This document shows, piece by piece, positions 17,050-64,000 of a stretch of 64,000 bases of DNA. The notes under the pieces are model-generated. The model saw only the letters and a list, made by a program, of their open reading frames with translations. It was not told the origin of the DNA and made no database searches. A program made the translations under genes and the position numbers. The stretch comes from Linderina pennispora (lineage: Eukaryota > Kickxellomycota > Kickxellomycetes > Kickxellales > Kickxellaceae). How positions within the stretch are numbered: the first letter of the stretch is position 1; every line of letters starts with the position of its first letter. The DNA is taken from NCBI RefSeq assembly GCF_002104995.1, contig NW_024468263.1, positions 186,001-250,000 on the forward strand. Direction: 5' to 3'.

Positions 17050-17287
17050 CGTTTGCTGCCGTCGTTTTATTTTGTGATATATGGGGAGGAAGAGGTGCTG
17101 AACTGAAGAAAGATCTGGCAATGGAAAAAAAAAGTGAAAAGAGCGTTTTTCATGGCAAATCCAATGATTTGATCAGCAATCACATCTGGAAAAATATGCG
17201 TCCGGATTGCTGGGGGCTGCACTTTCAGGCCAGCAGCGCTTCTCTATTCCTTCCCGCACCTCTAAACCTGGAATAATTTCATACAGA

Positions 17288-18658
17288 ATGGACGACAGCG
17301 CAGAGCGGCCAAAGTCGCTTCGGTTCAAGGAGCCGGTGATTGACATTGCGTTCAGCCCAACAGACAGCCTGGTGGCAAGCTCGCTGATCACTGGGCATGT
17401 CTTCATCCACCACTACGCGGTCGCAGGCAACGAGCGCAAGTACCGGCAGCGGATCCACAAAAAGTCGTGCCGTTCCGTGTGCTTCAGCGGTGACGGCGCG
17501 TCGTTGTATACGGCATCCAGGGACCGGTCATGGCAGACGCTCGATGTGGCGACGGGGATGGAGCGCATGCGCATTGAGGCAGCGCACGAGAAGCCGCTGA
17601 ACCTGGTCAAGCACGTGAACGAGCAGATAGTGGCGACCGGTGACGAGTCGGGGGTGGTGAAGCTGTGGGATGTGCGGCAGAACAAGGCCGCGTTCATACA
17701 CAAGGAGCACGTGGACTACATCTCCGACATGGTGTTCAACGAGGCCAAGCGGCATCTGCTGGTGACCAGCGGTGATGGGTGTCTGTCGGTGTACGATACG
17801 CGCAAGGCGAAGCCGTTTATGGTGTCTGATAACCAGGAGGACGAGCTGCTGTCGGTGGCGGTGATGAAGGAGGGCAAGAAGGTGGTGGTCGGCGAGACCG
17901 ACGGCGTGCTGGGGATTTTCACCTATGGGCAGTTCAGCGATGTCACGGATCGGTTCCCGGGCCATCCGCAGAGCATTGATTCGATCTGCAAGCTCACTGA
18001 GGATCTGTGCGTGACGGGGTCCAGCGACGGGCTGCTGCGAATCGTCGAGCTCTTCCCACACAAGCTCGTGGGTGTTGCAGGCGATCACGAGTCGCTGCCA
18101 GTGGAGAAGGTGGTGTTGAGCTACGATAGGCAGTGGCTGGCATCAAGCTCGCACGACCAGTCGGTGCATTTCTGGGACATTGGCTATATCTTCAACGAGG
18201 ACGGCGAGGATGAGGACCGGGAAGACCGGGAGGACCGGGAGGATCAGGAAGAGGAGCTGGATGCGCAGGCCATGGCGATCCGGATCACAAAGGAGATCGA
18301 GGACGAGGAGGACGAGGTGGATGTGGTTGGCAACGATACAGCATCGGAAATTGTTGATATCGTTGGTATTGATGACGATGAGGATGACGACGATGATGAA
18401 GACGAGGAGGTGGAGGTGGAGGAGACGAAGGCCGAGGGGGACATGGAACAGAAAGAGGAGGAAGAGAGCGAGAATGAAGGCGACGACGGGTGGGGCAGCT
18501 GGGGCGATTCTGACTCTGACTCGGGCGACACGAAGCGCAAGGTCAGCAAGCGCGACAAGGTCAAGGCCAAGCGCAAGGCTAAGCGCGAGCTGGCGCAGCC
18601 CGAGGCAAAGAAGAACAAGAAGCCCAGCAAGTCGGCCGCATTCTTTGCGGATCTGTAG
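17288..18658 (+). CDS. WDR55/JIP5-type WD40 ribosome biogenesis factor
   Basis: A 456-residue nucleolar protein. Start ATG 17288; upstream in-frame sequence lacks an ATG. Seven WD-like repeats fill about residues 15-305, with family-typical text (LRFKEPVIDIAFSPTDSLVA at the start, GDESGVVKLWDVRQ, VTSGDGCLSVYDTRK, LASSSHDQSVHFWD). Residues about 310-410 are extremely acidic with runs of Glu and Asp, and the C-terminus is basic (KRKVSKRDKVKAKRKAKRE) and ends KSAAFFADL, a tail typical of JIP5. In yeast JIP5 acts in 60S subunit maturation. A tandem GACCGGGAA-type repeat encodes part of the acidic tract near 18215-18245. Confidence 0.88.
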   Translation: MDDSAERPKSLRFKEPVIDIAFSPTDSLVASSLITGHVFIHHYAVAGNERKYRQRIHKKSCRSVCFSGDGASLYTASRDRSWQTLDVATGMERMRIEAAHEKPLNLVKHVNEQIVATGDESGVVKLWDVRQNKAAFIHKEHVDYISDMVFNEAKRHLLVTSGDGCLSVYDTRKAKPFMVSDNQEDELLSVAVMKEGKKVVVGETDGVLGIFTYGQFSDVTDRFPGHPQSIDSICKLTEDLCVTGSSDGLLRIVELFPHKLVGVAGDHESLPVEKVVLSYDRQWLASSSHDQSVHFWDIGYIFNEDGEDEDREDREDREDQEEELDAQAMAIRITKEIEDEEDEVDVVGNDTASEIVDIVGIDDDEDDDDDEDEEVEVEETKAEGDMEQKEEEESENEGDDGWGSWGDSDSDSGDTKRKVSKRDKVKAKRKAKRELAQPEAKKNKKPSKSAAFFADL

Positions 18659-18874
18659 CGGGAGACCCGGGCGGGCGGGTTCCAGGCCAAGCGGAGGGGG
18701 TTGATTTTCGAGTGCCACGGACACTTTCCCCTCGTTTTGCGTAATTTGGCTCTGCCCCACCACAGCTCCCTTTTCACGATCTCTTTCTCTTTCCTGCTCT
18801 CCAAACCTTAGACATTTATTTTTCCATACTCGCTTTTGTACCCCCCTCTATTTTCAATTCAAAACCCTTTCCGA

Positions 18875-20233
18875 ATGGGACCAAAACGTATCACATACCT
18901 GTATGACGATGAGGTGGGCAACTACAACTACGGATACGACCACTGCATGAAGCCGTTCCGGATCCGCATGGCGCACAGCATCATCACGTCGTATGGGCTG
19001 GACAAAAAGATGAACATGCGGCGGCCGCCGCGGGCGACGGCGGAGCAGATGACGCGGTTCCATACCGACGACTACATCACGTATCTGCGGCTGGTGTCGC
19101 CGGAGCTGGCAGAGCTGATGCCGACGTACAACGAGCGATTTCTGCCGCCGATGGACTGCCCGCCGTTCGACGGGCTGTACGAGTTCTGTTCGATCTCGGC
19201 GGGCGGGTCGATCGCGGGCGCAAAGAGCATCAACCAGGGCGAGTCGGACATAGTGATCAACTGGGCGGGCGGGCTGCATCATGCCAAGAAGGGTGAGGCG
19301 TCCGGGTTCTGCTACGTCAACGACATTGTGCTGGCGATCCTGGAGCTACTGCGATATCACCAGCGCGTGGTGTATCTGGATATTGATGTGCATCACGGCG
19401 ATGGCGTCGAGGAGGCGTTCTATACAACTGACCGCGTCATGTCGGTGAGCTTCCACCAGTTTGGCAACTTCTTCCCCGGCACCGGCGACATCAAGGACGT
19501 CGGGGTGGAGCGCGGCAAGTACTATGCGGTGAATGTGCCGCTGCGCGAAGGAATCGACGACGAGACATACGCTTTTGTGTTCCAGCGTGTCATGCGCAAT
19601 GTCATGGAGACGTACCGGCCCGGCGCAGTGGTGATGCAGTGCGGCACCGACTCGCTGTCGGGCGACCGGCTCGGGTGCTTCAACCTCAGCATGAAGGGCC
19701 ATGCCGCCTGCGTTGAATTCATGAAGTCGTTTGGCGTGCCGCTGTTCTGTGTGGGCGGCGGCGGCTACACGATCCGCAATGTCGCGCGCACGTGGGCGTA
19801 CGAGACCTCGGTGCTGGTGGGCGAAAAGGTCAGCCCGGTGCTGCCCTACAACGACTACTATGAGTTCTATGGACCCGACTACTCGCTAGACGTGCCTGCC
19901 AACAACATGGTCAACCATAATACGCGCGAGCAGCTGGAGAAAATCGTGGCCGATATCCACGACCACCTGCGGCATGTGCCGCACGCCCCGTCGGTGCAGA
20001 TGCACGAGGTGCCCAGGGACTGGCCGTCGGATAGCGAGGAGGAGAGCGACGGTGATATGGCGCTGGCAGAGAAGCGGCGCCAGCAGGCTGCCAGCAGGGA
20101 GGCCGCTGGCACACACAGGAGCAAGCGCGTCAGGGCCCGCCGCACCCGCCCGGCCGAGGACGAGCCCTTGATCCGGCGCGAGCAGCAGCGGGCCGAGGAC
20201 GACTCGGGGAGCAACTACAGCGAGAGAGATTAA
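18875..20233 (+). CDS. RPD3: Class I histone deacetylase, RPD3 type
   Basis: Zn-dependent lysine deacetylase of 452 residues, catalytic subunit of Sin3-type co-repressor complexes in fungi. Start ATG 18875 ([20 protein letters not shown]), the standard N-terminus of the family. Catalytic features: [20 protein letters not shown] with the His-His charge relay, [16 protein letters not shown] with the Zn-binding Asp and His, the Zn-binding Asp in QCGTDSL, and [15 protein letters not shown] with the catalytic Tyr. All are intact. Residues beyond about 375 form a charged disordered tail, shorter than or comparable to yeast Rpd3. Intronless. It sits 216 bp after the WD40 gene and 251 bp before RPB2, all on the plus strand, but no operon is implied. 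Confidence 0.95.
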
Positions 20234-20484
20234 ATGGGCTCTGGCACTGCTGCTGGCTTGGCCTGTGCTCGTTGCAACGCAGCCAAGCGAGAGCCCATTC
20301 CCTCCCACCCTTCATCGCTGCTGATTTTTCCTCCCACTGCTTGTGATCTAAATATCAGCGAGTTCTGTGTGGGCTTACAAATAATGCTAGGCTGGAGTGT
20401 GGGTTGCACGCGTCAATTTTGTTTTTTCTCTTTGCTCAGCCTTTTTTTATTATATACAGTTTTTCTCTAAATCCAGATTCCACA

Positions 20485-23400
20485 ATGGAGGCCGAGTACT
20501 ACGACGACGAACTCCCCTACGAGTACGACGAGTACGATGAGGAAATCACGCAGGAAGACTGCTGGGCCGTAATTACCCGGTACTTTGACGAGAACGGGCT
20601 GGTGCGCCAGCAGATTGCGTCGTTCAATGAGTTCATTGAAAACACGCTGCAGGAAATCGTCGACGAGAACCGCACGCTGGTGCTGCAGACGTCGATCCAG
20701 GGCAAGCAGCGGCAGGAGGTGTTCAAGCGCTTCCGCATAGAGTTTGGCCAAGTATATCTGTCACAGCCAGCGTTTACGGAGAAGGACGGAAGCTCAGCGG
20801 CTTTGCATCCGCAGGAGGCGCGGCTGCGCAACCTGACATACGCGGCGCCGCTGCTGGTGGATATCTGCCAGGAGACGTCGGTGGCTGACACGCTGAACCC
20901 GCGCAACGCCAACATCACGTCGGTGGCCGACATGGAGATGGATATTCTGAACCGCGACTGTCAGGTGGACGAGGACGGCCGGCTGTTTGGCGGGCGCAAG
21001 GTGTTTATCGGCAAGATCCCGATCATGCTGCGGTCAAACTTTTGTTTGCTGCATGGGCTCAGCGACCACGACCTGCACCAGCTGGGCGAGTGCCCGTATG
21101 ACCAGGGCGGCTACTTTGTGATCAACGGCTCGGAGAAGGTGCTGATTGCACAGGAGCGCATTGCCACCAACACGGTGTTTGTGTTCAAGAAGAACCTGCC
21201 GTACCCGCACTATACGGCGGAGATCCGCAGTAGTGCCGAGCGCGTGTCGAAGCAGGCAAGCCCGCTGTTCCTGAAGATGTCCAACAAGGGCGTCGAGAAG
21301 GGCTCGGGCCACACCATCCAGACCACGATCCCGTATATCCGCTCTGACATTCCGGCCGTGGTGGTGTTCCGTGCGCTGGGCATGGTGGCTGCCAAGGACA
21401 TCCTGGAGCACATTGCCTACGATGTCAACGACGCGCAGATGATGGAGATGCTGAAGCCGTCGGTCGAGGAGGCCTTTGTGATCCAGGACCGCGACGTGGC
21501 GCTCGACTTTATCGGCAAGCGTGGAACCACTGTCGGTGTCAGCCGCGACAAGCGTGTGCGGTATGCAACAGAGATTCTGCAGAAAGAGTTTCTGCCCCAT
21601 GTCGGCACGCAGGCGCACAATGAGACGGTCAAGGCGTACTTCTTTGGCTACATGATCCACCGGCTGCTTCTGTGTGCGCTGGAGCGGCGAGAGCCCGACG
21701 ACCGTGACCACTACGGAAAGAAGCGCATGGACCTGGCCGGACCCCTGCTGTCGATGCTGTTCCGCAACCTGTTCCGCAAGCTCACCAAGGACGTGACGCG
21801 GTACCTGCAGAAGTGCATTGACTCAAACCGCGACTTCAACCTGACCATTGCCGTCAAGTCCAACACTATCTCAACCGGTCTCAAATACTCGCTGGCCACC
21901 GGAAACTGGGGCGACCAGAAGAAGGCCATGCAGGCGCGCGCTGGTGTGTCGCAGGTGCTGAACCGCTACACGTTTGCGTCGACGCTGTCGCATCTGCGTC
22001 GCTGCAACACGCCCATCGGCCGCGACGGCAAGATCGCCAAGCCGCGCCAGCTGCACAACACGCACTGGGGCCTGGTGTGCCCGGCCGAGACGCCCGAGGG
22101 CCAGGCGTGCGGACTGGTCAAGAATCTGGCACTGATGGCCCACATCACTGTCGGCTCTGACTCCAAGCCTGTCAACCTGTTGCTGGAGGAATGGGGCATG
22201 GAGAACCTGACCGAGGTGCAGGCCTCGAGCATCCTCAATGCCACCCGCGTGTTCCTCAACGGCATGTGGGTCGGCATCCACCGCGAGCCCGAGGACCTGG
22301 TTCGCCCCTTGCTGGCTGCGCGCCGCAACCTCGACATGTCGTTTGAGGTGTCGATTGTGCGCGATGTGCGTGAGAAGGAGCTCCGCATCTACACCGACGC
22401 TGGCCGCGTATGCCGTCCCTTGCTTGTGGTCGACAACCTGCAGCTGCTGCTGAAGAAGACGCATATCCAGCAGATCGAGGCCACGGATGTGCAGGAGGAG
22501 AACGCCTACAAGTGGCACGACCTGCTGGCGGACGGCGTCATCGAGTACCTGGACGCCGAGGAGGAGGAGACGGCCATGATCTGCATGACGCCGCAGGAGC
22601 TGGGCGAGAGCCGGCTCTTTTTGCAGAAGGGAATCGAGCCGATGCAGGAGAGCGACCTGGCGTCCCGCGTGCGCTCTCGGCGTAACATCCACATCAAGAC
22701 GTGGACGCACTGCGAGATCCACCCGTCGATGATTCTGGGTATTTGCGCGTCGATCGTGCCGTTCCCCGACCACAACCAGTCGCCGCGTAACACGTACCAG
22801 TCGGCCATGGGCAAGCAGGCCATGGGCATCATGCTCACCAACTACCAGCTGCGCATGGACACGCTGGCCAACATCCTGTACTACCCGCAGAAGCCGCTGG
22901 CCACCACGCGCTCGATGGAGTACCTCAAGTTCCGTGAGCTGCCGGCCGGCCAGAACGCGGTTGTTGGAATCATGTGCTATGGCGGTTACAACCAGGAGGA
23001 CTCTGTCATCATGAACCAGTCGTCGATTGACCGCGGCCTGTTCCGCTCGCTGTACTTCCGCACGTACCAGGACGAGGAGGACAAGCAGGGCATGTCGCAG
23101 ATGGGCACGTTCGAGAAGCCTACGCGCGACACCACGCTGCGCCTGAAGCACGGCACCTACGAGAAGCTGGAGGAGGACGGGCTGATTGCGCCTGGCACGC
23201 GGGTGACCGGCGACGACATCATCATTGGCAAGACGACTGCGATCCCGGCCGACTCGCTGGAGCTGGGCCAGCGCACAAAGAACCACACCAAGCTGGATGC
23301 ATCCAAGCCGCTGCGGTCGACCGAGCACGGAATCATCGACCAGGTCATGATCACGACCAACTCGGAGGCATACAAGTTCGTCAAGGTGCGCATCCGCTCG

Positions 23401-24156
23401 ACGCGTATCCCGCAGATGGGCGACAAGTTTGCGTCGCGACACGGCCAGAAGGGCACTATTGGCATCACGTACCGCACCGAGGACATGCCGTTCTCGGCCG
23501 AGGGCGTGGTGCCCGACATCATCATCAACCCGCACGCCATTCCGTCGCGTATGACCATCGGGCATCTGGTCGAGTGCCTTTTGTCGAAGCTGTCGACGCT
23601 GCTCGGGTCCGAGGGCGACGCGACGCCCTTCACCGACGTCACTGTCGAGGCGATTTCGCGCGAGCTCCTGGAGCACGGCTACCAGCCCCGCGGCTTCGAG
23701 GTCATGTACAACGGCCACACCGGCAAGAAGCTGGCCGCCCAGGTCTTTTTGGGTCCCACGTACTACCAGCGCCTGAAGCACATGGTCGACGACAAGATCC
23801 ACTCGCGTGCCCGTGGCCCCGTGCAGATCCTGACCCGCCAGCCCGTCGAGGGTCGCTCGCGTGACGGTGGCCTGCGTTTCGGTGAGATGGAGCGCGATGT
23901 CATGATTGCCCACGGCGTGGCTCAGTTCCTGAAGGAGCGGCTGTTTGATGCCTCCGATGCCTACAGAGTGCATGTCTGCGACAGGTGCGGCCTGATGGCT
24001 GTCGCCAGCCTGAAGAAGAACCAGTTCAAGTGCACAGCCTGCAGCAACAGCACGCAGATCTCGCAGGTCCACATCCCGTATGCCTGCAAGCTGCTGTTCC
24101 AGGAGCTCATGGCAATGAACATTGCCCCGCGCCTGATGGTCACGGCACAAAACTAA
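20485..24156 (+). CDS. RPB2: RNA polymerase II second-largest subunit
   Basis: A 1223-residue intronless gene, normal length. Start at ATG 20485 ([20 protein letters not shown]); the open frame continues upstream but through the leader, and TATATA lies at 20451-20456. Landmarks: the [20 protein letters not shown] motif, [17 protein letters not shown] (active-site hybrid-binding region), [17 protein letters not shown], the [13 protein letters not shown] segment, and a C-terminal zinc ribbon (CDRCG ... CTAC). All are intact with no frame break over 3.7 kb, and the codon use is strongly GC-ending. This is the best phylogenetic marker in the window. Confidence 0.98.
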
Positions 24157-45703: not shown

Positions 45704-48031
45704 TTAGAGGTCGGTCTCGTCGTCGACCTCGGATGGAGCCGTGGTTTCGGCAACCACTTGCTCGCTCTTGGGCGTCGCAGAGTCCTCCATCTTGACATTC
45801 TCTATCTTGACGTCATCCTCAGACGCTGGATCGGCTTCATTCTTGGCTTCGTCGTCGTCCTTGGTGTCTTCGGGCTTGACCTCATTTTCATCATCATGCT
45901 CGGGCTCTACTGGCAGCGGGTCCGAGTGATGGTGTAGCGGGCGCAGCGTCCTGCTCACGCTGCCAATGACCGATGCAAGCCGCGCGCGCAGCACGTCGCT
46001 CTCGGTCTGGACCTCCAGGGTCTCCGCATCAACAGTTGCCCTGAGCTCATTCAGCTCGACCTCGATCTTCCGGCCCTCGGCCATGCGCACGCTCGAAAAC
46101 TGATGCTTCATAAACGGCACCAGACGGTCGGCCACGCTGCTCTTCACATCAACACGCAGCCCATCGTCGTGGGCGTGGGCACAGCTGGTCCGCGTCATCT
46201 TGACGGACGCCGGGCTGCACTCGATATTCAGCACCACAGCAACCACCGAGTCGGCCACCATGTCGCTCATGGCGCTGCCCTCCCACTCGATCTCGACAAA
46301 CGGCTTGGCCGTCGAGTGGGTGATGTTGACTGAGTCGTAGGCGCGCAGCACAGTGGTGACGTCCGACTCGGATTTGATTGTGGTCAGCGTGAGCACCCCA
46401 AACATGCGCTCCAGGTGGTGCAGCAGCAGCGCCAGCGAGGCCCGGCACGGCACAATCTGGTGCTGCTCGACTACGACCTGCTCGATGGCGCTGACGTCCG
46501 CCAGATCCGCCACGTCCACCAGCGTATACTTGTAATCGCGCTGCACCAGAATGCCCGCGGCTCGGTCGCCGTCACCTGGCACCTTGCGGGCCAAGGCGCC
46601 TATCACACGCGCCATTTTCTCGCCGCGGAAATGCAGCTGGACGGTCTCGGTGTTGCGCGGGGTGTGCAGGTGGATGGCGTAGTCGCTGCCCGCGTACTTG
46701 TCGGTCAGCGCCGAGCGCAGCCGCAGCATTGCGTTCTGCTCGCCATGGACCAGGATCACGTGCGGCGCCCGGATCTCGTCCACAAACGAGCTGTTCTGCG
46801 TGTAGTCTACGTGCGCCGAAAACGACACGTAGCTGACCGACATGCGGCGCGGGATCCGCTGCCCGGCCAGCGTCATGACCTCGTCGGGCTCGTTCATAAT
46901 CGTGCGTGCCAGCGTACCCTCCACCGAGTACCCCGTGATTAGCAGTCCATTGCGGCGGTCCGGCGCCCACCGGTCAAACAGCTCGCGTGACAGCCCGCTC
47001 TGCAGCATACCGGGACTGGCCACCATCACGCATGCGCTGGCGTCGTCGAACCCGCCCAGGTTCTTGAGGTTCGAGATGTGCTTGAACTTGAACGGGTTGC
47101 TGCCGGTCTCGCGCGCCTGCGTCTGGATCCGCTGGTTCATCATCAAAAGATATGTTTCGTAGAATGTCATGCAGCGGCTGGCCAGTGGCGATGCAAAGTA
47201 GATTGGGATGCCCTCGAGCTCGCGCGCATGCCGCTGCCAGTACTCCTCCAGAATCAGTAGCAGCTCCTGCGTGCGACCTAGCGCAAACACCGGCATCAGG
47301 CACCGCCCGCCGCGCTTCACAATGTCGCGTACCGCGCTGGTGAACCGGGCCTCGCGCTCTACCCGCGGCTCATGGCTCTGCACGCCATATGTCGATTCGG
47401 TAATCAGCACGTCTACCGGCACATGCGGGTTCTCCGCCGCCATCAGATGCCGGTCCTCCTCGCGCGAGTAATCTCCTGTATACAGGACCTTGACGCCGGC
47501 TATCTCAATCACATACATGGCCGCTCCCAATACGTGTCCGGCATTATATGCCGTGAACTTTATGCCGTCCACGTCGATTTGCTGGTGGATGTCGATGGCC
47601 TCGATTTTCCCATACGCGTTGTCCATGTCCCGCTGGTCGTACAGCGCCCCTGAAGACGCGTTGTTGGTCACCCGCACATAGTCCGCCACGAGCCATTTGA
47701 ATATCGCCTTTGTCGGGTGCGTCATGAAGGTCCGGCCCTTGAACGCCGTCTTTTCGATGTAGTACGGGACCGCCGCTGCATGGTCTACGTGGAAGTGCGT
47801 CACCAGGAGCACGTCCACTGACGCCGGATCCACTTCGTCTATAAACGGCAGGCTGTTCTCGCCCTCGTACGCCGGGTGCAGCCCGCAGTCCAGCATCACC
47901 GTCTTGCCCTTGTACCGCAGCACTATGCACGACCGCCCCACCTCCTGACCCGCGCCCAGCGGTGTTATCTGCAGAAGGTCGTCCTCGTCCTCAATCGCCA
48001 CCACGATATCCGCCTTGCGTTTTTGTGCCAT
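45704..48031 (-). CDS. YSH1: mRNA 3'-end endonuclease CPSF73/YSH1
   Basis: The metallo-beta-lactamase/beta-CASP nuclease that cleaves pre-mRNA at the poly(A) site, 775 residues, intronless, start ATG 48031. Zn ligands are present: HFHVDH at residues 79-84, GHVLGAAMYVIE, TGDYSREEDRH, the beta-CASP motif segments GRTQELLLILEEYW and VASPGMLQSG, and FSAHVDY. After residue about 490 comes the C-terminal domain that binds the partner subunit, and then a highly acidic tail (EPEHDDENEVKPEDTKDDDE) of about 70 residues. All active-site residues I can check are intact. Confidence 0.95.
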   Translation of the reverse strand: MAQKRKADIVVAIEDEDDLLQITPLGAGQEVGRSCIVLRYKGKTVMLDCGLHPAYEGENSLPFIDEVDPASVDVLLVTHFHVDHAAAVPYYIEKTAFKGRTFMTHPTKAIFKWLVADYVRVTNNASSGALYDQRDMDNAYGKIEAIDIHQQIDVDGIKFTAYNAGHVLGAAMYVIEIAGVKVLYTGDYSREEDRHLMAAENPHVPVDVLITESTYGVQSHEPRVEREARFTSAVRDIVKRGGRCLMPVFALGRTQELLLILEEYWQRHARELEGIPIYFASPLASRCMTFYETYLLMMNQRIQTQARETGSNPFKFKHISNLKNLGGFDDASACVMVASPGMLQSGLSRELFDRWAPDRRNGLLITGYSVEGTLARTIMNEPDEVMTLAGQRIPRRMSVSYVSFSAHVDYTQNSSFVDEIRAPHVILVHGEQNAMLRLRSALTDKYAGSDYAIHLHTPRNTETVQLHFRGEKMARVIGALARKVPGDGDRAAGILVQRDYKYTLVDVADLADVSAIEQVVVEQHQIVPCRASLALLLHHLERMFGVLTLTTIKSESDVTTVLRAYDSVNITHSTAKPFVEIEWEGSAMSDMVADSVVAVVLNIECSPASVKMTRTSCAHAHDDGLRVDVKSSVADRLVPFMKHQFSSVRMAEGRKIEVELNELRATVDAETLEVQTESDVLRARLASVIGSVSRTLRPLHHHSDPLPVEPEHDDENEVKPEDTKDDDEAKNEADPASEDDVKIENVKMEDSATPKSEQVVAETTAPSEVDDETDL

Positions 48032-52965: not shown

Positions 52966-53165
52966 ATTAATATTAACAGCTGCTCAGCGTGTCAGTTTGT
53001 AAATTCCAACATAAATCTAGCTGCCTTGCTCCAAAGTCGAGCATGGCATAACGTTCCTGTCACGAGCATGTGGCTTCATTGGAAGGTTGGTTAGAAATAA
53101 ATGTGTAGCTTAATCTTTACTCCTTTATCTTTCTCTACATATATATGATTTTATAGTCCATAACA

Positions 53166-54201
53166 TGTGGGGCTGGGTCGCAGATTTAACATCAAAGCGA
53201 TTTAAGGAACATTGTGATAGAGGATTCCACGGAATGGCAACAACAGATGGTATAACAATATGCATTTTGTTGCAAGACAAGGTATCCAAGGCTGATGGTG
53301 CAGTAGATGCTGATGCTGCGGGAGGCGATGCTACAGCTGACTGTCGCTATATCCACCAGATCCCACAGCCATAGCTGCAGAATCTGAAAGGCCGCTGTGT
53401 ATTCATCGATCCAGGTCGGGGCGATTTACTGTACATGATGCACGAAAATAGCAGCAATGGGAAAGAGGGTGAAAAATGCTCTACCGCTACACACGGCAGC
53501 AGCGCAATAAGGAGCTCAAGCTGCGCCACTATGATAGGATTCGTCAGGCTACAAAGGATCAAGTCCCAGAAGATGCTGTCCGCAGAGCAGAGGCGGAGCT
53601 TTCCAAGCACTGCTGCCGGACCCTTAGCCCAGCAAAATTCCGTGCCTACGTTGCTGCCTGTGCATCTGTGCGGTGTATCCTAGCACCGTTTTATGCCAAC
53701 ACGATGACAACACGAAGGTTACCAGAGATCGAAGAACCCAACTGTGAAGTGCCATGGCCTTCTCCGCTGTACAAGCGAGTCACGTAAGCGGGCCATGGCA
53801 TAATACAGGCGGGCCTATTTGTCTCGACTCTTGAACCGCGATCTCGCAGCAGCTCTAAACTTCAGACTCATTTTCCAGTCACTCTGTGATTCAGGCAGTA
53901 TTCCTGAACGGTTCCGTCGTTCTACGGCCATTGCTGCCGATGCTTCTGGCACCACTCCAGCTACAAAGAACCCGCGCAAGAGGCATGCAGCAGCAGGGGA
54001 TTCTGCTACCAGCAGCAGCGAACCAGCGCTGAAGCGCCTGCGCTGAGCAGGCCACCAAGGTGGGGAAATGTCCATGATCGACATTGCACCAACAACCATC
54101 CGACACGTTCAAATGACCGGTTCGCCGTGATGTTTGTATCGACATGTTAACCCATGCTGACTAGCAGCCAAGCTCGCATAGCGAGCAGAGTAATTCTAGT
54201 A
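53166..54201 (+). pseudogene. Fanzor nuclease relic, 5' truncated and internally deleted
   Basis: Homologous in DNA sequence to the intact Fanzor at 59064-61667 but opposite strand. Homology starts at about TGTGGGGC (53166), so the N-terminal half is missing. A CAGCCATAG nonsense change sits at 53372 where the intact gene has CAGCCAGAG, and an A run is one base shorter (about 53475), shifting frame. A deletion of 383 bp removes the second RuvC region and the first zinc-finger half; its ends are both TACCAGAG in the intact copy, and one copy remains here (about 53719-53726). Homology ends near TTCTAGTA at 54201, 29 bp before the stop of the next gene. Not functional as a nuclease; the 3' non-coding block and hairpin survive. 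Confidence 0.9.
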
Positions 54202-57769: not shown

Positions 57770-58204
57770 TTCGAAGCCAGTTAAAAAAATAAGGGTCTCC
57801 CGGAATTAAGGGGCAGAAATATTATAAATTAGAAGCTAAAAAGTATACAGGAAATTGAAATTGGGAAAAGAAAAAAGGTCCAGGTCCCGCGTTGCTCCGA
57901 GCGCTTTTGACCAGCAAGGGATTCGCCTTTTTGGGTTCACAATGAGCAAGCGACCGCGGCTAGTTTCACATATTTTTAGGCTGCGCCTGTGCGACCCAAG
58001 TCGACCCCTCCAAGCGGTACACTGCTATAGACTGTGCAAGGCGCTGTAGGGCGACTGCTGAGGATTCGAGTGCACAGCAGATAATAATAGCTGCGGACTT
58101 TGGCCAGTGTTGGGGCTAGCGCATGTACTATTGGGTGAGCTCACACATAGAACCTGCTTGGAGATTTCGCCACATTGTCCCGCAGTACTTTCTAGTCCGA
58201 GCAC
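57770..58204. other. Intergenic, no gene seen
   Basis: About 435 bases holding the upstream region of the four-exon membrane gene and the 3' flank of the secreted-protein gene. AT-rich near 57790-57860. Nothing else recognised. Confidence 0.4.
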
Positions 58205-58582
58205 CTATTGCCTGGAGATCATTGCGTTGACAGCATGCGCATACGACTGGCTGAGGCGGGTGAGAAGGAAATCTACTGTGACCTGGCCGTTAGGATCTTT
58301 GATGGCCTCGGCGCGCGCCTTGGTGTTCAGCCCCTCCATCACCTTGTACAGCGACTCGCGGTAATCGTACTCGGCAAAGTCGTTGTTGAGGCCCTTTGCT
58401 GTGTCCTTGTCTTCCAGGAACTCGGCCAGCTTGATGTAGATGGTGCGCTCGTTGGGTGTGCCAGTGTTGGCTTTGGCCAGCTGCTGTCCAAGCGTGTAAA
58501 ACAGGACCTTTTGCTGGAGCGACCATGTGGCAGCAGTCAGTTGAGTAAACAATGCGAATAGCGCTACAGTACGAAACCACAT
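58205..58582 (-). CDS. Small secreted protein, hypothetical
   Basis: Start at ATG 58582, giving 125 residues beginning MWFRTVALFALFTQLTAATWS, a clear signal peptide with cleavage likely near TAA. An earlier ATG at 58645 exists but lies only about 5 nt from a TATATAAA box, too close for a leader, so the second ATG is preferred. The mature part is about 105 residues, helical and charged (LYKVMEGLNTKARAEAIK), with no cysteines. No family recognised. Its TATA element sits about 70 nt upstream of the called start. Confidence 0.65.
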   Translation of the reverse strand: MWFRTVALFALFTQLTAATWSLQQKVLFYTLGQQLAKANTGTPNERTIYIKLAEFLEDKDTAKGLNNDFAEYDYRESLYKVMEGLNTKARAEAIKDPNGQVTVDFLLTRLSQSYAHAVNAMISRQ

Positions 58583-58649
58583 AGTGTTGAAGATGAGAAA
58601 AGGTACGATGCTGGCTGTCTGCAGAAATGCCTTTGGGTATACCATGTCG

Positions 58650-58657
58650 TTTATATA
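58650..58657 (-). promoter_or_regulatory. TATA box, secreted-protein gene
   Basis: Minus-strand TATATAAA, 68 nt upstream of ATG 58582. It decides between the two candidate starts, because the first ATG (58645) is too near to leave room for a transcription start. Confidence 0.55.
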
Positions 58658-58939
58658 GCAAGGCTAGGGTGGGAGTGTAATGAATACATGTGTCAGATGT
58701 GGCTATTACTGCTCCAGTGCGGGATAGCCATTGACAAACAAATAGTGTGGAGCAGCTATCACCATTGAAACATGAATAAAGGTGAGAATGAAGTGAAGAA
58801 CCCTCGCTTGGCAATCGATAAACGGGATTGAGGGATAGTGCTTCTTGAGGCCAGCGATTGTTTTCTGGATGCTATAGAACTACACCTTAAATGGCAAGCA
58901 TTTATAGACAATGTATACCATCGGCATCTCTTGAGGTCT

Positions 58940-59063
58940 TACTAGAAATACTCTGCTCGCGATGCGAGCTCGGCTGCTAGTCAGCATGGGTTGACACGTC
59001 GATAAGGGCATCACGGCGAACCGGTCATTTGAACGTGTCGGATGGTTGTTGGTGCAATGTCGA
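58940..59063 (-). ncRNA. Candidate Fanzor omega-RNA scaffold and element right end
   Basis: The 124 bases directly after the Fanzor stop, read on the minus strand, are strongly conserved with the 3' flank of the relic (54047-54201), including about 65 nearly identical bases, although neither copy codes here. Features in the RNA sense: a CGG-TTCG-CCG hairpin with a UUCG loop, a GACACGT...ACGTGTC long-range pair in the intact copy, and a perfect hairpin GCTCGC-ATC-GCGAGC at 58969-58955 that the relic keeps with a changed loop (ATA). Conservation stops at TTCTAGTA. In characterised Fanzors and TnpBs the guide RNA overlaps the ORF 3' end and reads out across the right end. Function here is inferred. 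Confidence 0.5.
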
Positions 59064-61667
59064 TCATGGACATCTCCTGTCTTGATGGCCTGCTCTGCGT
59101 AGGCGCTTCAGCGCTGGCTCGCTGCTGATGGCAACAGAACCGCCTGCTGCTGCACGCCTCTTGCGCGACCTCTTTGTTGCAGGGGTGGTGCCAGAAGCAT
59201 CAGCAGCAATGGCCGTAAAGCGATGGAACCGTTCAGGAATACTGCCTGAACCACAGAGTGACTGGAAAATGAGTCTGAAGTTTAGAACTGCTGCGAGATC
59301 GCGGTTCAAGAGCCGAGACGAATAGGCTCGCCTGTATTGTGCCATGGCCCGCTTACATGACTCGCTTGTACAGCGGAGAAGGCCATGGCACTTCACAGTT
59401 GGGTTCTTCGATCTCTGGTAGGGCCGCGGGTTGGGAACATGCCGGAATGTCTGCAGCGACTTTTCGCAGCAGAACGGGCACATCGACGATGTCCGGAATT
59501 CGTCGATCAGATAGACTTCAAAGCCATGGTGCTTGAACCTGTCGTGCCACCCCTTGCCACGAATCGGCGCATGGTGTCGGGCCATTGGCGCACTCCAATT
59601 GCCCATGATCAGCACTGGATCTGGACCGAACTTGCTCCGGAGTTTCGCAGCAAGCCTGTGGTCTGCACGGGCCTGGTTCATGAATGAATCAAGGCGCAGC
59701 TTGCGGTGAAGCGGGTACACCTTGGGACTGGTACTGACACCTGGATGGGCCTTCCAGCGCCTTTGGTGCTGCTTGTTTGACTTAGTGAGTTGCTGCTCTG
59801 GTAACCTTCGCGCTGTCATCGTGCTGGCATAAAACGGTGCTAGGATACACCGCACAGATGCACGGGCAGCAACGTAGGCACGGAATTTTGCTGGGCTAAG
59901 GGTCCGGCAGCAGTGCTTGGAAAGCTCTGCCTCTGCTCTGCGGACAGCATCTTCTGGGACTTGATCCTTTGTATCCCAACGAATCCTGTCATAGTGGCGC
60001 AGCTTGAGCTCCTTGTTGCGCTGCTGCCGTGTGTAGCGGTAGAGCATTTTTTCACCCTCTTTTCCATTGCTGCTATTTTCGTGCATCATGTATAGCAAAT
60101 CGCCCCGACCTGGATCGATGAATACACAGCGGCCTTTCAGATTCTGCAGCTCTGGCTGTGGGATCTGGTGGATATAGCGACAGTCAGCTATAGTACTGCC
60201 TCCCACAGCATCACCTCCTGCAACATCGCCTGTAGCATCGCCTGTAGCATCGCCTCCCACAGAATTGCCTCCCGCAGCATCGCCTCCCGCAGCATCGCCT
60301 CCTGCACCATCAGCATCTACTGCACCATCAGCCTTGGATATCTTGTCTTGTAACAGAATGCATATCGTTACACCATCTGTTGTCGCCATTCCGTGGAATT
60401 TTCTATCACCATGCGCCTTAAATGGCTTTGATGTTAGATCTGCGACCCGGCCCCACACATCCCACACAGGTTGTGTGATCCCTTGGACCGGGTCGTGTGC
60501 ACAGACTGGGGGTGCTGATGCATATGCATTGTTAAGTGCTGCAACAGTGTCTGCTGCTGCTGCCGATGCAGCAGCAAGTGAATCAGCCGCTACTGCTGCA
60601 GTTGCTGCAGTGGCCTCTGTTGCATCCGATGGCATCTTCGCTGCTTCGCGTGCAGCCTTCTTGGCCAATTTTTTGCCCTTTTCTGCTGCTTTCCTTGCCT
60701 CTGTTGCTGCCCTCTTTGCGGCGTTGATCTGTGTAACCTGCTCGCATGTCTTCGAAATAAACACCTGCTTGATTATTTGCTTGTCCAAACGCACATGGCC
60801 TGGGATCCATGATGTCCGCAGAGGCAAGCATTGGGGAGGAGACTTGCCAAGCTGCTCATTCTCGATAAGCTGGCATAGGCGAATGTATGCACGCAGATGC
60901 TTAAGTGGATTTACCTTGGCATCATAGTATCGGCTGTCTTTGGCGAATCTGTACTTGGCACCATAGGCATTAAGGACTGGTGCCAGCTTGTTGTAGATTG
61001 CAAGCATCGGTGGGGTGAGCACACTGAGATCAGGGTGTCTAGAGGCAACTGCCTGGCGGAGCTTCTGTGCGGGTGTATAGATACACACTTGACATGCATT
61101 ATTGAACTCAGCCTTGGACACATTGCCCATTGTACTGTGCAGTGTGTTTTTGCGGCTGCGAATATCAATCAATTTGGCCAGAATCCGCTGTAGGCAAGTG
61201 CCATAGTGCAACACAATGTTGTTCTTGTATGCTGTCATCAGCTCGGTATCCACGTATGTCGCTACCTGATTCATTTCACGTACGCCATGTAGCTCGATAT
61301 CGCCATTATGTAATAGATAATCATAAATATGATATCTAACTACATCACCGAAATCTGCGCTCGACAGTTCTGACCTGTCCTTCCGGTTAACGAAATCCTC
61401 GGCAGATATGACAGTCTTCGCCTTCAGGTTGCGATAAATGAATAAATAAATAAAACGAAAAAAACCCTTTTTCACAAATGTTGCTGGGTCAAAGGCATCA
61501 TCGTAAGCTAGCTGATGGAGTAGTATCCATCGTGCAAGCATGTATGTATGCTCTTTGATGATATTGACGCTGTGTACAAATTGCTCTAGGCGGGGCAACA
61601 TAGAATCACGGAAGCCAATACCACCAAGTGATGTCTTTATGACAGTAGTGCTGCGGGTAATATTCAT
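59064..61667 (-). CDS. Fanzor: eukaryotic TnpB-like RNA-guided nuclease, intact ORF
   Basis: An uninterrupted 867-residue ORF from ATG 61667. Residues 1-300 form the Fanzor-type N-terminal region; 310-370 are Ala/Lys-rich (KAAEKGKKLAKKAAREAAK), a likely nucleic-acid or nuclear signal segment. A Gly/Asp/Ala minisatellite occupies about 450-490. RuvC-I follows (CVFIDPGRGDLLYMM, near 515). The second RuvC region reads LIMGNWSAPMARHH (near 685), where TnpB would have a catalytic Glu; an alternative acid occurs at YLIDEFRTSS (near 723), as described for the rearranged Fanzor site. A zinc ribbon follows (CPFC near 729; later KCHGLLRC and C). RuvC-III is NRDLAAVLNF (near 788). The C-terminus is basic. 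No companion recombinase is in the window, so mobility in cis is unproved. Confidence 0.9.
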   Translation of the reverse strand: MNITRSTTVIKTSLGGIGFRDSMLPRLEQFVHSVNIIKEHTYMLARWILLHQLAYDDAFDPATFVKKGFFRFIYLFIYRNLKAKTVISAEDFVNRKDRSELSSADFGDVVRYHIYDYLLHNGDIELHGVREMNQVATYVDTELMTAYKNNIVLHYGTCLQRILAKLIDIRSRKNTLHSTMGNVSKAEFNNACQVCIYTPAQKLRQAVASRHPDLSVLTPPMLAIYNKLAPVLNAYGAKYRFAKDSRYYDAKVNPLKHLRAYIRLCQLIENEQLGKSPPQCLPLRTSWIPGHVRLDKQIIKQVFISKTCEQVTQINAAKRAATEARKAAEKGKKLAKKAAREAAKMPSDATEATAATAAVAADSLAAASAAAADTVAALNNAYASAPPVCAHDPVQGITQPVWDVWGRVADLTSKPFKAHGDRKFHGMATTDGVTICILLQDKISKADGAVDADGAGGDAAGGDAAGGNSVGGDATGDATGDVAGGDAVGGSTIADCRYIHQIPQPELQNLKGRCVFIDPGRGDLLYMMHENSSNGKEGEKMLYRYTRQQRNKELKLRHYDRIRWDTKDQVPEDAVRRAEAELSKHCCRTLSPAKFRAYVAARASVRCILAPFYASTMTARRLPEQQLTKSNKQHQRRWKAHPGVSTSPKVYPLHRKLRLDSFMNQARADHRLAAKLRSKFGPDPVLIMGNWSAPMARHHAPIRGKGWHDRFKHHGFEVYLIDEFRTSSMCPFCCEKSLQTFRHVPNPRPYQRSKNPTVKCHGLLRCTSESCKRAMAQYRRAYSSRLLNRDLAAVLNFRLIFQSLCGSGSIPERFHRFTAIAADASGTTPATKRSRKRRAAAGGSVAISSEPALKRLRRAGHQDRRCP
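60196..60312 (-). repeat. Coding minisatellite in the Fanzor linker
   Basis: Tandem 12- and 15-bp units encode repeats of G-D-A-(A/T/V)-G and GGDA. The intact gene has about nine units while the relic at 53.3 kb has only two or three, so the array is variable between copies. It lies in a linker ahead of RuvC-I and keeps frame. Confidence 0.8.
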
Positions 61668-62458
61668 TTGAGAAATTCAATAGGCAAGTAAGAAGAGAAA
61701 TGATGCTGTTCAGTTTTGCTGTATTGCAGATGCATAGCATTAAGAACTTTTTATTAATAATGATCTGGCTTGCATGGTTCTTGGGGCTCTTAGCACTGAT
61801 ACAGTCTCTTGAATCAGTCTATACAGACTGGGTCCATTGTGACCCAAATACTACCGCTTACGCATGTTCATAAGACAAATTAATTTATAAAATAAACCCA
61901 CAAATATTGCATGACCGCTAGAAGAGCTATATGGCCTCATTCAATAGGTGCTCATAAATAAATATCCTAAGAGTGTTGCGCAGCCGGTGATGACCACCAT
62001 GATGACGCCATAGAAGTTATCAGGCTGACCGACAATGAGAGCAGCTCTTGTGCTGAACCAATGGAGATATCCAGTGGAGACCTATGACCACTACAATAAC
62101 AACTTGTCACCCTGGTTTCACCGATGAGGTCAGATGCCGCACAAGATCAAAAGGAGTTTACAGAGCAAGTCACTCAAACCCGTGTTGAAGCTTAAGAGTT
62201 TTTTTTAACCAATTAAATAATTTCTAGCGGACGGTCGGACACTTTTTGGACTATACAATCTTATATATAGGTAAAGATATAAGCATGTCTTGGGAAAAAT
62301 GCGCGCAAGTCCACAATCTGAACAAACCATATCCATCACAAGTACATGATCTGCCATGGCTAGCAGATTCCACACAAAGGACACAAATTTTATTTTCGCT
62401 ACTTTTAAAAAGATCAACCTCACCTACCTCAATATTCACCTACCGCTTGGTTGTCGAT
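61668..62458. other. Upstream flank of Fanzor and of the F-box frame
   Basis: A 791-base divergent region. The left end of the Fanzor element should lie here but cannot be placed: the relic lacks this end, and I see no terminal inverted repeat. AT-rich with an A/T tract near 61895-61905. The final part reads through in frame to the F-box start without a better ATG. Confidence 0.4.
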
Positions 62459-64000
62459 ATGGACTCAACGCTGCCTTCTGCACAGAACGCCTTGCCTGAC
62501 ATTCTTGGTCTTATTTTCGACCGCATCGAGTATGGCAAGAAGCTGAAGAACGAGTAGGAAAAGTTGGATCACAGAAGAGTGGTTGATACCACCAAGTCGC
62601 TTCTCTCAATTGCGCAGGTCTGCCGCTCATGGAGAACTGCTGCGCTGCCTTACTTCTACCAAAGCGCTGAGATGCTTCTCATGCCTGTATCGGATGAAAC
62701 CCGCTATTATCCAGAGATGGATTACCCAGAGCTCTCTATGGCAGCCGCTGCTGGGCACAGCCAACTTGTCCGCTCAGTATACCTCTTTCTGTCGCTTGAC
62801 CATATTGTTGACGGCATCTCCACCACTATGCTGAAAGCTGGCGCTCTTTCTGCGGCGATCTTCCCAAATGTGACTGAGCTCGTGCTCTATTTCAACAGAA
62901 GCAACGTCTTTATCCAAGGAAAATAATCGGAAGAAGTCGGCTCTTTCATTGAGCGTATCCACCAGCTGTTTCCGAATGCACAGGACAGCTCGTTCGTTAT
63001 TAATCCAGGCGTGTGGGCCGACTATGGGGGCATATGCCAAAACTTGATGGGTATTATTGCCCCAATGCCGAGAACCTTTCTATTCCGCGGGCTTGCAGAT
63101 GAAGGTACCGAAATTCAGGGAGAATTTGGTACTGGGATTCAGCGTATGTACCTTGAAATGTATCAGATCTCCGCATGTCAGCTCGCATATTCTAATAGGG
63201 ACACTATCAAAGAGCTGGTGCTTCGTCTAACACCGGATGCCGATGACGAGATAGCCCTCGGAGATATATCAGAGGACCTGGAATCGCTATTCAACTGCAT
63301 CTATCCGAAACTCACCAGGCTATCCATCGAGACAGGACAGGATGTGGTGGGGTGTTTTAGCTTGCCTGATATTAACCTGTTTCCATCGCTGACCAGCCTT
63401 TCTCTGAACACATACTGTGACTTTGACATTGGTTTTTTTGTTGACGACGCAAGCGATAACCTAACATCTCTTACGATATACCTCACCAAACCCATTGTGA
63501 GATCGCTTCGTGGCCGCGTGTTCCCTAACCTCGTTTGTGTCCGTATTCGGAAAACTGACATAACGATTGGGCTCTATGGTATCGACGCTGTAATTGAGGC
63601 GGCACATCTGCCTTTTTTAGTCGCGCCAAATGCCGAATATATCGAAGCCTACTGCCATTCATTGCGCTACCGTCAGTCTCCCCAATCTTTCATCCCGCAA
63701 AACCACTCGAATCCGCAGCTTCGCCATCTAATTATCAGCCAAACTACGCTTACCCTCAGCGTACTCCAGCAGGTTCTGGCTCATTTCCCTGGGCTGATTA
63801 GGATTGGAGTTGACGGGATCCAATCCGATGAAGGAGTCTATCTTAATACGTCGGACAACGAGGTTAGCAGGCTGCTGACGGAGCTCCCAATCCTCAGTAC
63901 TAGTCTGAGACGGATTGATTTTATTACCTCGTGGACTGTCGATTCGCTGATGGTCGTCGCTATTGCGAAGCTGCCCTCCCTCAGGATGGTCACTATCAGA
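62459..64000 (+). pseudogene. F-box/LRR-like protein frame with two stops, runs off window
   Basis: From ATG 62459 (MDSTLPSAQNALPDILGLIF) the frame stays the same to the end of the window, 514 codons, except for TAG at 62555 and TAA at 62924. The TAG falls inside the F-box (LPDILGLIFDRIEYGKKL ... SLLSIAQVCRSWRTAALPYFY), and the TAA after NVFIQGK. Between and after them the sequence is ordinary coding text with leucine-rich repeats (LTRLSIETG, LTSLSLNTYCDF, LTSLTIYLTK, FPNLVCVRI, NPQLRHLIISQTTLTLSVLQQV). The last 1,074 bases are open. F-box/LRR proteins usually act as SCF ubiquitin-ligase receptors. A recent pseudogene fits best; the 3' end is not visible. Confidence 0.7.

Follow-up and report, generated by a model that had tools for sequence, protein, structure and literature searches.

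The Fanzor1 protein of Spizellomyces punctatus (SpuFz1) is encoded by inverted-repeat elements that occur in many copies in one fungal genome. Its omega-RNA derives from the element's 3' terminus, and its target-adjacent motif (TAM) is CATA; a conserved CA precedes the element, for which no transposase was found (PMC10432273). In Chlamydomonas, Fanzor1 genes are carried by the Helitron2 elements CRe-1, CRe-2 and CRe-3, which are non-autonomous, share the ends of RepHel elements, have a hairpin at the 3' end and insert after TTTT, often with target-site duplications; the 3' ends of CRe-1 outnumber its 5' ends (PMC3627910). For TnpB of bacterial IS200/IS605 insertion sequences on plasmids, a gene drive was proposed in which the guide derives from the flank and element-free copies are cut (PMC11870625). 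Saito et al. stated that the role of Fanzors for hosts or transposons is unknown, and named the possibility that Helitron-borne Fanzors cut empty sites (PMC10432273, Discussion). Here we describe a Fanzor1 gene from the fungus Linderina pennispora. It lies in a 64,000-nucleotide stretch of contig NW_024468263.1 (positions 186,001 to 250,000, which we call the window), in an element that is best called a non-autonomous Helitron and that can also be found joined to its RepHel partner.

The Linderina elements resemble those of SpuFz1 in being numerous in one fungal genome and in having a candidate omega-RNA at the 3' end, but they have Helitron ends and a RepHel partner. As with the CRe elements, Fanzor1 sits in non-autonomous Helitrons that share RepHel ends and a hairpin 3' end, and 3' ends outnumber 5' ends (221 versus 120). 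Unlike the CRe elements, they insert at A^TA (where ^ is the insertion point) and have TC...CTRG ends, the gene in the window is intronless, and physical junctions link Fanzor elements to RepHel copies. This is a Fanzor1 in a eukaryotic transposon other than IS607. Among the papers listed for Fanzor and Helitron or for Kickxellales and Fanzor, we found no report of the family, in a search with most subscription papers outside its coverage.

We lean towards the view that the Fanzor of this RepHel-moved Helitron serves its element by RNA-guided cutting of empty sites. Most likely, the RepHel Helitron in the same genome moves the Fanzor element into A^TA sites by rolling-circle copy-and-paste. 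A guide RNA would then be transcribed that comprises the 3' end of the element, the target TA and about 15 nt of flanking host DNA. With this guide, Fanzor would cut the matching empty site (ATA plus target) on other copies of the chromosome and spare the filled site, which has GTA at the TAM position. Repair from the filled copy would raise the frequency of the element, as TnpB does for bacterial insertion sequences. Our data document the family, the ends of the element, its copy number, the link to RepHel, the target motif and purifying selection; the expression of the guide RNA, the TAM, the cleavage and the copying into empty sites are what we infer in this scheme. A guide taken from the flank and the cutting of element-free copies are also the points of likeness to the TnpB drive; here the carrier is a eukaryotic Helitron and the signs are indirect.

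A sequence-only reading of the window had proposed an intact Fanzor gene of 867 residues without giving its strand; the surrounding mobile element, its copy number and a second, shorter copy at 53114-54199 are not part of that reading. The open reading frame (ORF) has exactly the coordinates proposed (59064-61667); it is on the minus strand, starts with ATG and runs for 867 codons without interruption. By similarity it is firmly a member of the Fanzor1 family. A phmmer comparison with solved structures gave E = 1.2e-82 for the Fanzor1 of Parasitella parasitica (PpFz1), 2.2e-31 for SpuFz1 and 1e-4 for GtFz1, and a profile of 51 proteins matched these at 9e-245, 5e-108 and 2e-28, respectively. 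A protein search with residues 500-830 as the query found 119 homologs, mostly from Coemansia and Mucorales; the best was from Dichotomocladium elegans (48%). (With the whole protein as the query, and the best 8000 candidates scored, there was one match, probably because low-complexity words crowded the candidate list.) Scanning the 867 residues against Pfam gave no match, and NCBIfam gave only a TnpB match below the cut-off. The family name given by the sequence-only reading is thus upheld by three solved Fanzor1 proteins as well as by the homologs.

The motifs that it named are all present: IDPGRGD at 517, GNWSAP at 689, LIDEFRTSS at 720, NRDLAAVLN at 788 and the zinc-ribbon cysteines at 730, 733, 766 and 771. 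Its idea of a rearranged catalytic glutamate fits the alignment too. Counting residues along the phmmer alignment, D518, E723 and D790 fall on D383, E541 and D606 of SpuFz1, which sit around two Mg2+ ions (PMC11423790). In the alignment of 51 proteins, D518 is D in all 51, E723 is E in 50 and D790 is D in 46, while the position of N690 has N in 35 and D in 16. Among the copies of the element, D518 is kept in 29 of 31, E723 in 29 of the 30 with letters at that position, and D790 in all 30 with letters there. The alignments therefore support an alternative-glutamate triad of D518/E723/D790, and the ORF is a candidate active nuclease; selection on the coding sequence, described below, makes the predicted activity more likely.

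PpFz1 (PDB 9cf0-9cf3) belongs to the same family over most of its length and shares the GNWSAP, LIDEFRTSS and NRD motifs. It has a RuvC insertion of about 100 amino acids (FRI), whereas the window protein has about 33 residues in that place. The window protein also carries an Ala/Lys-rich insert of 95 residues (306-400), at a point where the median length in 50 relatives is 8 residues. Four fungal gene models among the relatives (P0030, P0085, P0100 and P0115) fuse parts of Fanzor to unrelated cellular domains; these are probably annotation fusions at insertions.

The element is 3.34 kb long. Homology between the window and other copies in this genome spans 58940 to about 62279 and breaks off sharply there. 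Read in the sense of the gene, it begins with TCTTTACCTATATATAAGAT... and ends with ...GCTCGC-ATC-GCGAGC...TTTCTAG. Helitrons start with 5'-TC, end with 3'-CTRR behind a subterminal hairpin, and insert between A and T without duplicating the target. The family has ends of this type (5'-TC...hairpin-CTRG-3'): the GCTCGC-ATC-GCGAGC hairpin is followed by CTAG or CTGG in 65 of the 68 distinct 3' tails that we examined, out of 221 3' ends. We also considered a transposon with terminal inverted repeats and target duplication, and ruled it out as we saw neither inverted repeats nor a target duplication at the ends.

A RepHel Helitron in the same genome, with Helitron_like_N and PIF1 domains, has the same first ~80 bp and a similar hairpin-CTAG end. 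The arms of the two terminal hairpins differ by one paired change (GCTCGC/GCGAGC in the Fanzor element versus GCTTGC/GCAAGC). The RepHel protein is absent from the Fanzor element and present in the partner with the same 5' end, which is why we call the Fanzor element non-autonomous. A pattern search that allowed up to three mismatches found eight RepHel 3' ends in the genome, and in all eight places the family's 5' end follows directly, with its first few bases gone in some. Fanzor-specific sequence comes next at seven of these junctions, in a head-to-tail arrangement. At the eighth, L086 (C2:649480-649900), there is a third kind of element that has only the first ~55 bp in common with the other two. 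Loci L043 and L090 have a common 5' flank, so the eight junctions need not all be independent insertions. Given the shared first ~80 bp and the seven head-to-tail junctions, the Fanzor element is best read as a non-autonomous Helitron; as far as ends, target and partner go, its Helitron context is firm.

A more distant RepHel copy (L041, C68:192000-201900; 88.9 bits) has an open frame of 1989 codons and perhaps belongs to another Helitron family. At the 5' terminus of several copies (for example L006, L009, L042 and L045), and of RepHel elements as well, there are variable (TCTTTA)n arrays, possibly from repeated rolling-circle initiation or from slippage.

The same kind of pattern search found 221 matches to the 3' end and 120 to the 5' end, the latter including RepHel elements, which have that end too; the reversed patterns had none. 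A search of the genome with the Fanzor protein gave 75 match rows. We aligned 31 copies: the window, L002-L030 (ranked best by protein similarity) and L039. Ten of them are free of frameshifts and of stops upstream of codon 858; among these ten, L011 is missing its first 12 codons. The median pairwise divergence is 5%. The copy at L019 (contig C175) differs from the window copy at 0.03% of aligned bases, and its ORF has two 1-nt indels; with flanks included (window 58046-62659) the two are 99.4% identical, so L019 is an allele or a duplicate. A recurrent TGA was considered as a recoded codon and ruled out: it falls at codon 858 (in 20 of the 30 copies besides the window's), only a few codons short of where the window copy stops. 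Head-to-tail Fanzor arrays are seen at L013 and L030, where the CTAGTA of one copy runs into the apparent 5' part of another. At L040 (1008-4168, plus strand), a Fanzor element is split in two by another transposon nested in it, whose ORFs include one for a DDE_Tnp_4 transposase.

Variants in the 31 copies suggest that purifying selection acted on the Fanzor protein during the spread of the family. Counts were pooled over copies picked by protein similarity and made without a tree. Variants common to three or more copies are synonymous in 109 cases and non-synonymous in 103, as against 119 and 296 for singletons. The synonymous fraction is thus 0.514 for common variants and 0.287 for singletons, where 0.299 is the neutral expectation from the singletons' mutation spectrum (Fisher P = 4e-8). 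From these counts, dN/dS is about 0.29 for shared substitutions and about 0.77 for singletons; the median pairwise dN/dS is 0.30 in the 10 unbroken copies and 0.37 in the 21 broken ones. An excess of synonymous changes among shared variants, together with neutral singletons, indicates neutral decay after insertion and retention of the protein in the lineages that spread. A Helitron might also have picked up the Fanzor and copied it along as a passenger that gives the element nothing. RepHel can act in trans, and lesions common to several copies, such as a 1-nt deletion at codon 277 in 6 of the 31, were probably copied after the gene had broken. But a passenger should be neutral in both classes of variants, and the shared class is not. 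We think that a mere passenger is quite unlikely.

The 3' end of the element is also constrained. In the last 90 nt, 3 of 90 sites have shared variants, versus 59 of 408 fourfold sites (P = 0.002), while singleton rates are equal (14/90 versus 68/408). The 40 nt above the last 50 have one shared variant (P = 0.029). The 31-copy alignment shows no constraint in the 5' terminal 80 bp. This pattern fits a guide-RNA gene and could include what the Helitron needs. The sequence-only reading had described a recognizable non-coding partner 3' of the gene. A constrained stretch does reach to the end of the element; a search of this stretch against Rfam gave no credible match, and its predicted fold, discussed below, is unremarkable. 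Elsewhere, Rfam matches to isrG and MIR7526 over 60537-60623 were taken as chance, being far below the gathering scores and on an Ala-coding repeat.

The insertion target has a defined motif. CTRG lies within 20 nt in 65 of the 68 tails, and is followed by T in all 65 and by TA in 64. Among the 18 5' flanks that are clean and distinct, the base next to the element is A in 15 (five of the 18 are RepHel elements; 10 further 5' ends that were not clean were excluded). All 11 apparently empty sites, described below, have A just before the joint; the next base is T in 8 of them, and 7 have the full ATA (the others are AAA, AAA, AAT and ATT). Because TA is present in empty sites, it is host DNA.

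Instead of cutting empty alleles under RNA guidance, the Fanzor might help with transposition itself, through regulation, the choice of target or the cutting of strands at A^TA. The A^TA target (TA in 64 of 65 tails) is narrower than the simple A^T target of Helitrons, and selection on the protein fits any role; a transposition role was proposed by Bao and Jurka (PMC3627910). However, the Fanzors that have been tested are RNA-guided nucleases (PMC10432273). Furthermore, all eight RepHel 3' ends found adjoin a Fanzor element (seven) or another element (one), so they offer no free RepHel end for comparison and the extra A cannot be assigned. We consider a role in transposition unlikely.

For cutting of empty sites, the A^TA target fits the TAM of the closest solved relative, PpFz1, which is 5'-ATN (PMC11423790). 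Known Fanzor omega-RNAs run 14-15 nt beyond the element (PMC10432273), and in other Fanzor1 RNAs the scaffold takes in the target duplication (PMC10711439). By analogy, we predict that the window copy has a TAM of ATA (or ATN), a scaffold that ends in CTAGTA and a guide that starts at 58939 and runs towards lower coordinates. At the TAM position the filled site has GTA, which would protect it. One copy (L018) is inserted in a multi-copy repeat, to which L116-L121 are related, so its predicted guide would match several related sites.

We searched the flanks of 60 copies against the genome (in two of the searches, the best 40 of 76 and the best 40 of 47 candidates were scored) and found at least 11 apparently empty sites among the matches listed. 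Eight of the 11 were compared on the 3' flank only, and three had some 5' flank. We excluded L096 (a homolog of the L016 flank), where the flanks looked rearranged; the repeat family that matches the L018 flank (L116-L121); divergent homologs of the L070 flank (L111-L112); and about 12 further places that match the L063 3' flank only from about nt 15 onward. None of the 11 empty sites matches its filled partner perfectly over ATA and the next 15 nt, versus 4.2 expected from their own divergence further out (P = 0.003). At the far edge of the same flanks there are 5 perfect matches versus 4.5 expected. As a control we used 28 pairs of filled sites (a first 16, of which 8 were perfect, then 11 partners and L001/L019): 15 are perfect versus 15.5 expected, and comparing 0/11 directly with 15/28 gives Fisher P = 0.002. 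The deficit fits cutting of matching empty alleles, and imprecise insertion could contribute to it.

It is quite possible, if still doubtful in our judgment, that the differences at empty sites come entirely from imprecise insertion or from sites that are paralogous rather than allelic, with no cutting at all. Two of the three empty sites with a comparable 5' flank (L093 and L094) carry 8 and 11 additional bp right at the joint, which means that an imprecise insertion can alter the flank close to the element; the other eight were compared on the 3' side. Against this, several of the differences sit at some distance from the joint, 6-13 nt along the flank, and duplicated filled sites show no deficit, but filled pairs may descend from one insertion and share its changes. 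In two filled pairs (L085/L123 and L066/L110), the outer flank is common and the first ~10-20 nt next to the element differ, as if joined at neighboring sites.

Besides the extra bases at these joints, several observations weigh against cutting of empty sites. The test was designed post hoc with n = 11, and its pairs reuse copies (L029 three times). If the third TAM base is left free, the deficit weakens to 1 of 11 versus 4.4 expected (P = 0.023; Fisher P = 0.014). When differences near the joint are set against those further out, the ratio is no different in empty than in filled pairs (P = 0.22, or P = 0.64 with the first 16 filled pairs). The predicted RNA fold of the 3' end is no better than that of shuffled sequence (z = -0.43), and we saw no covariation there among 30 copies. 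Of the 31 aligned copies, 21 are broken, some with common lesions, which implies that copies without a working Fanzor were amplified too. Finally, a Helitron alone could produce the A^TA target.

More tentatively, this may be a natural RNA-guided homing drive of eukaryotes. Its TAM would be the Helitron insertion motif ATA, it would be programmed anew by the flank at each insertion, and it would cut, and thereby convert, element-free alleles in diploid or heterokaryotic nuclei. We regard this larger claim as possible but doubtful.

The features of the window are collected in the table below. Elsewhere in the window, 17207-24156 and 45704-48031 hold ordinary genes (WDR55, histone deacetylase, RPB2 and a CPSF73-like nuclease); the RPB2 protein shows 93% identity, across 79% of its length, with that of Dipsacomyces acuminosporus, which places the host near that genus of the Kickxellales.

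Table. Features of the Fanzor element and its surroundings, in window coordinates.
Feature	Position	Strand	Details
Helitron, best called non-autonomous, with one gene (Fanzor1)	58942..62277	-	5' end TCTTTACC at 62277; 3' CTAG at 58945-58942
5' non-coding leader	61668..62277	-	terminal ~80 bp is the end common to the RepHel Helitron
Fanzor1 ORF, 867 aa	59064..61667	-	D518, E723, D790; N690 in GNWSAP; Cys 730/733/766/771
In-frame tandem repeat, Gly/Asp/Ala stretch	60198..60311	-	lengths differ among copies, mostly by multiples of 3
Candidate omega-RNA scaffold, ~100 nt	58940..59039	-	stem-loop 59039-58993; 4-bp stem-loop 58985-58973; Helitron terminal hairpin 58969-58955; CTAG, TA
Host TA of A^TA; would be transcribed as part of the scaffold and, in the empty site, supply the last two TAM bases	58940..58941	-	TA in 64/65 tails and 7/11 empty sites
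Predicted 15-nt guide of the window copy, in flanking host DNA	58925..58939	-	inferred from known Fanzor omega-RNAs
Host A, left half of A^TA	62278..62278	-	A in 15/18 distinct clean 5' flanks
Second, internally deleted copy, in the opposite orientation	53114..54199	+	CTAG then TA at 3' end; boundaries read from sequence

In this one genome, what Fanzors do for transposons can be tested directly: similar copies are numerous, a RepHel partner is linked to them, the target motif is defined, the 3' ends are constrained, and filled sites can be paired with empty ones. The family provides an evolutionary sign that the Fanzor protein mattered during the spread of the element, and a concrete prediction of the TAM and guide for the copy in the window. 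A homing drive, if true, would explain both why the nuclease gene was kept under selection and why the targets at surviving empty sites are mismatched. The copy-and-paste of the Helitron and the cut-and-copy of the Fanzor would then act in sequence.

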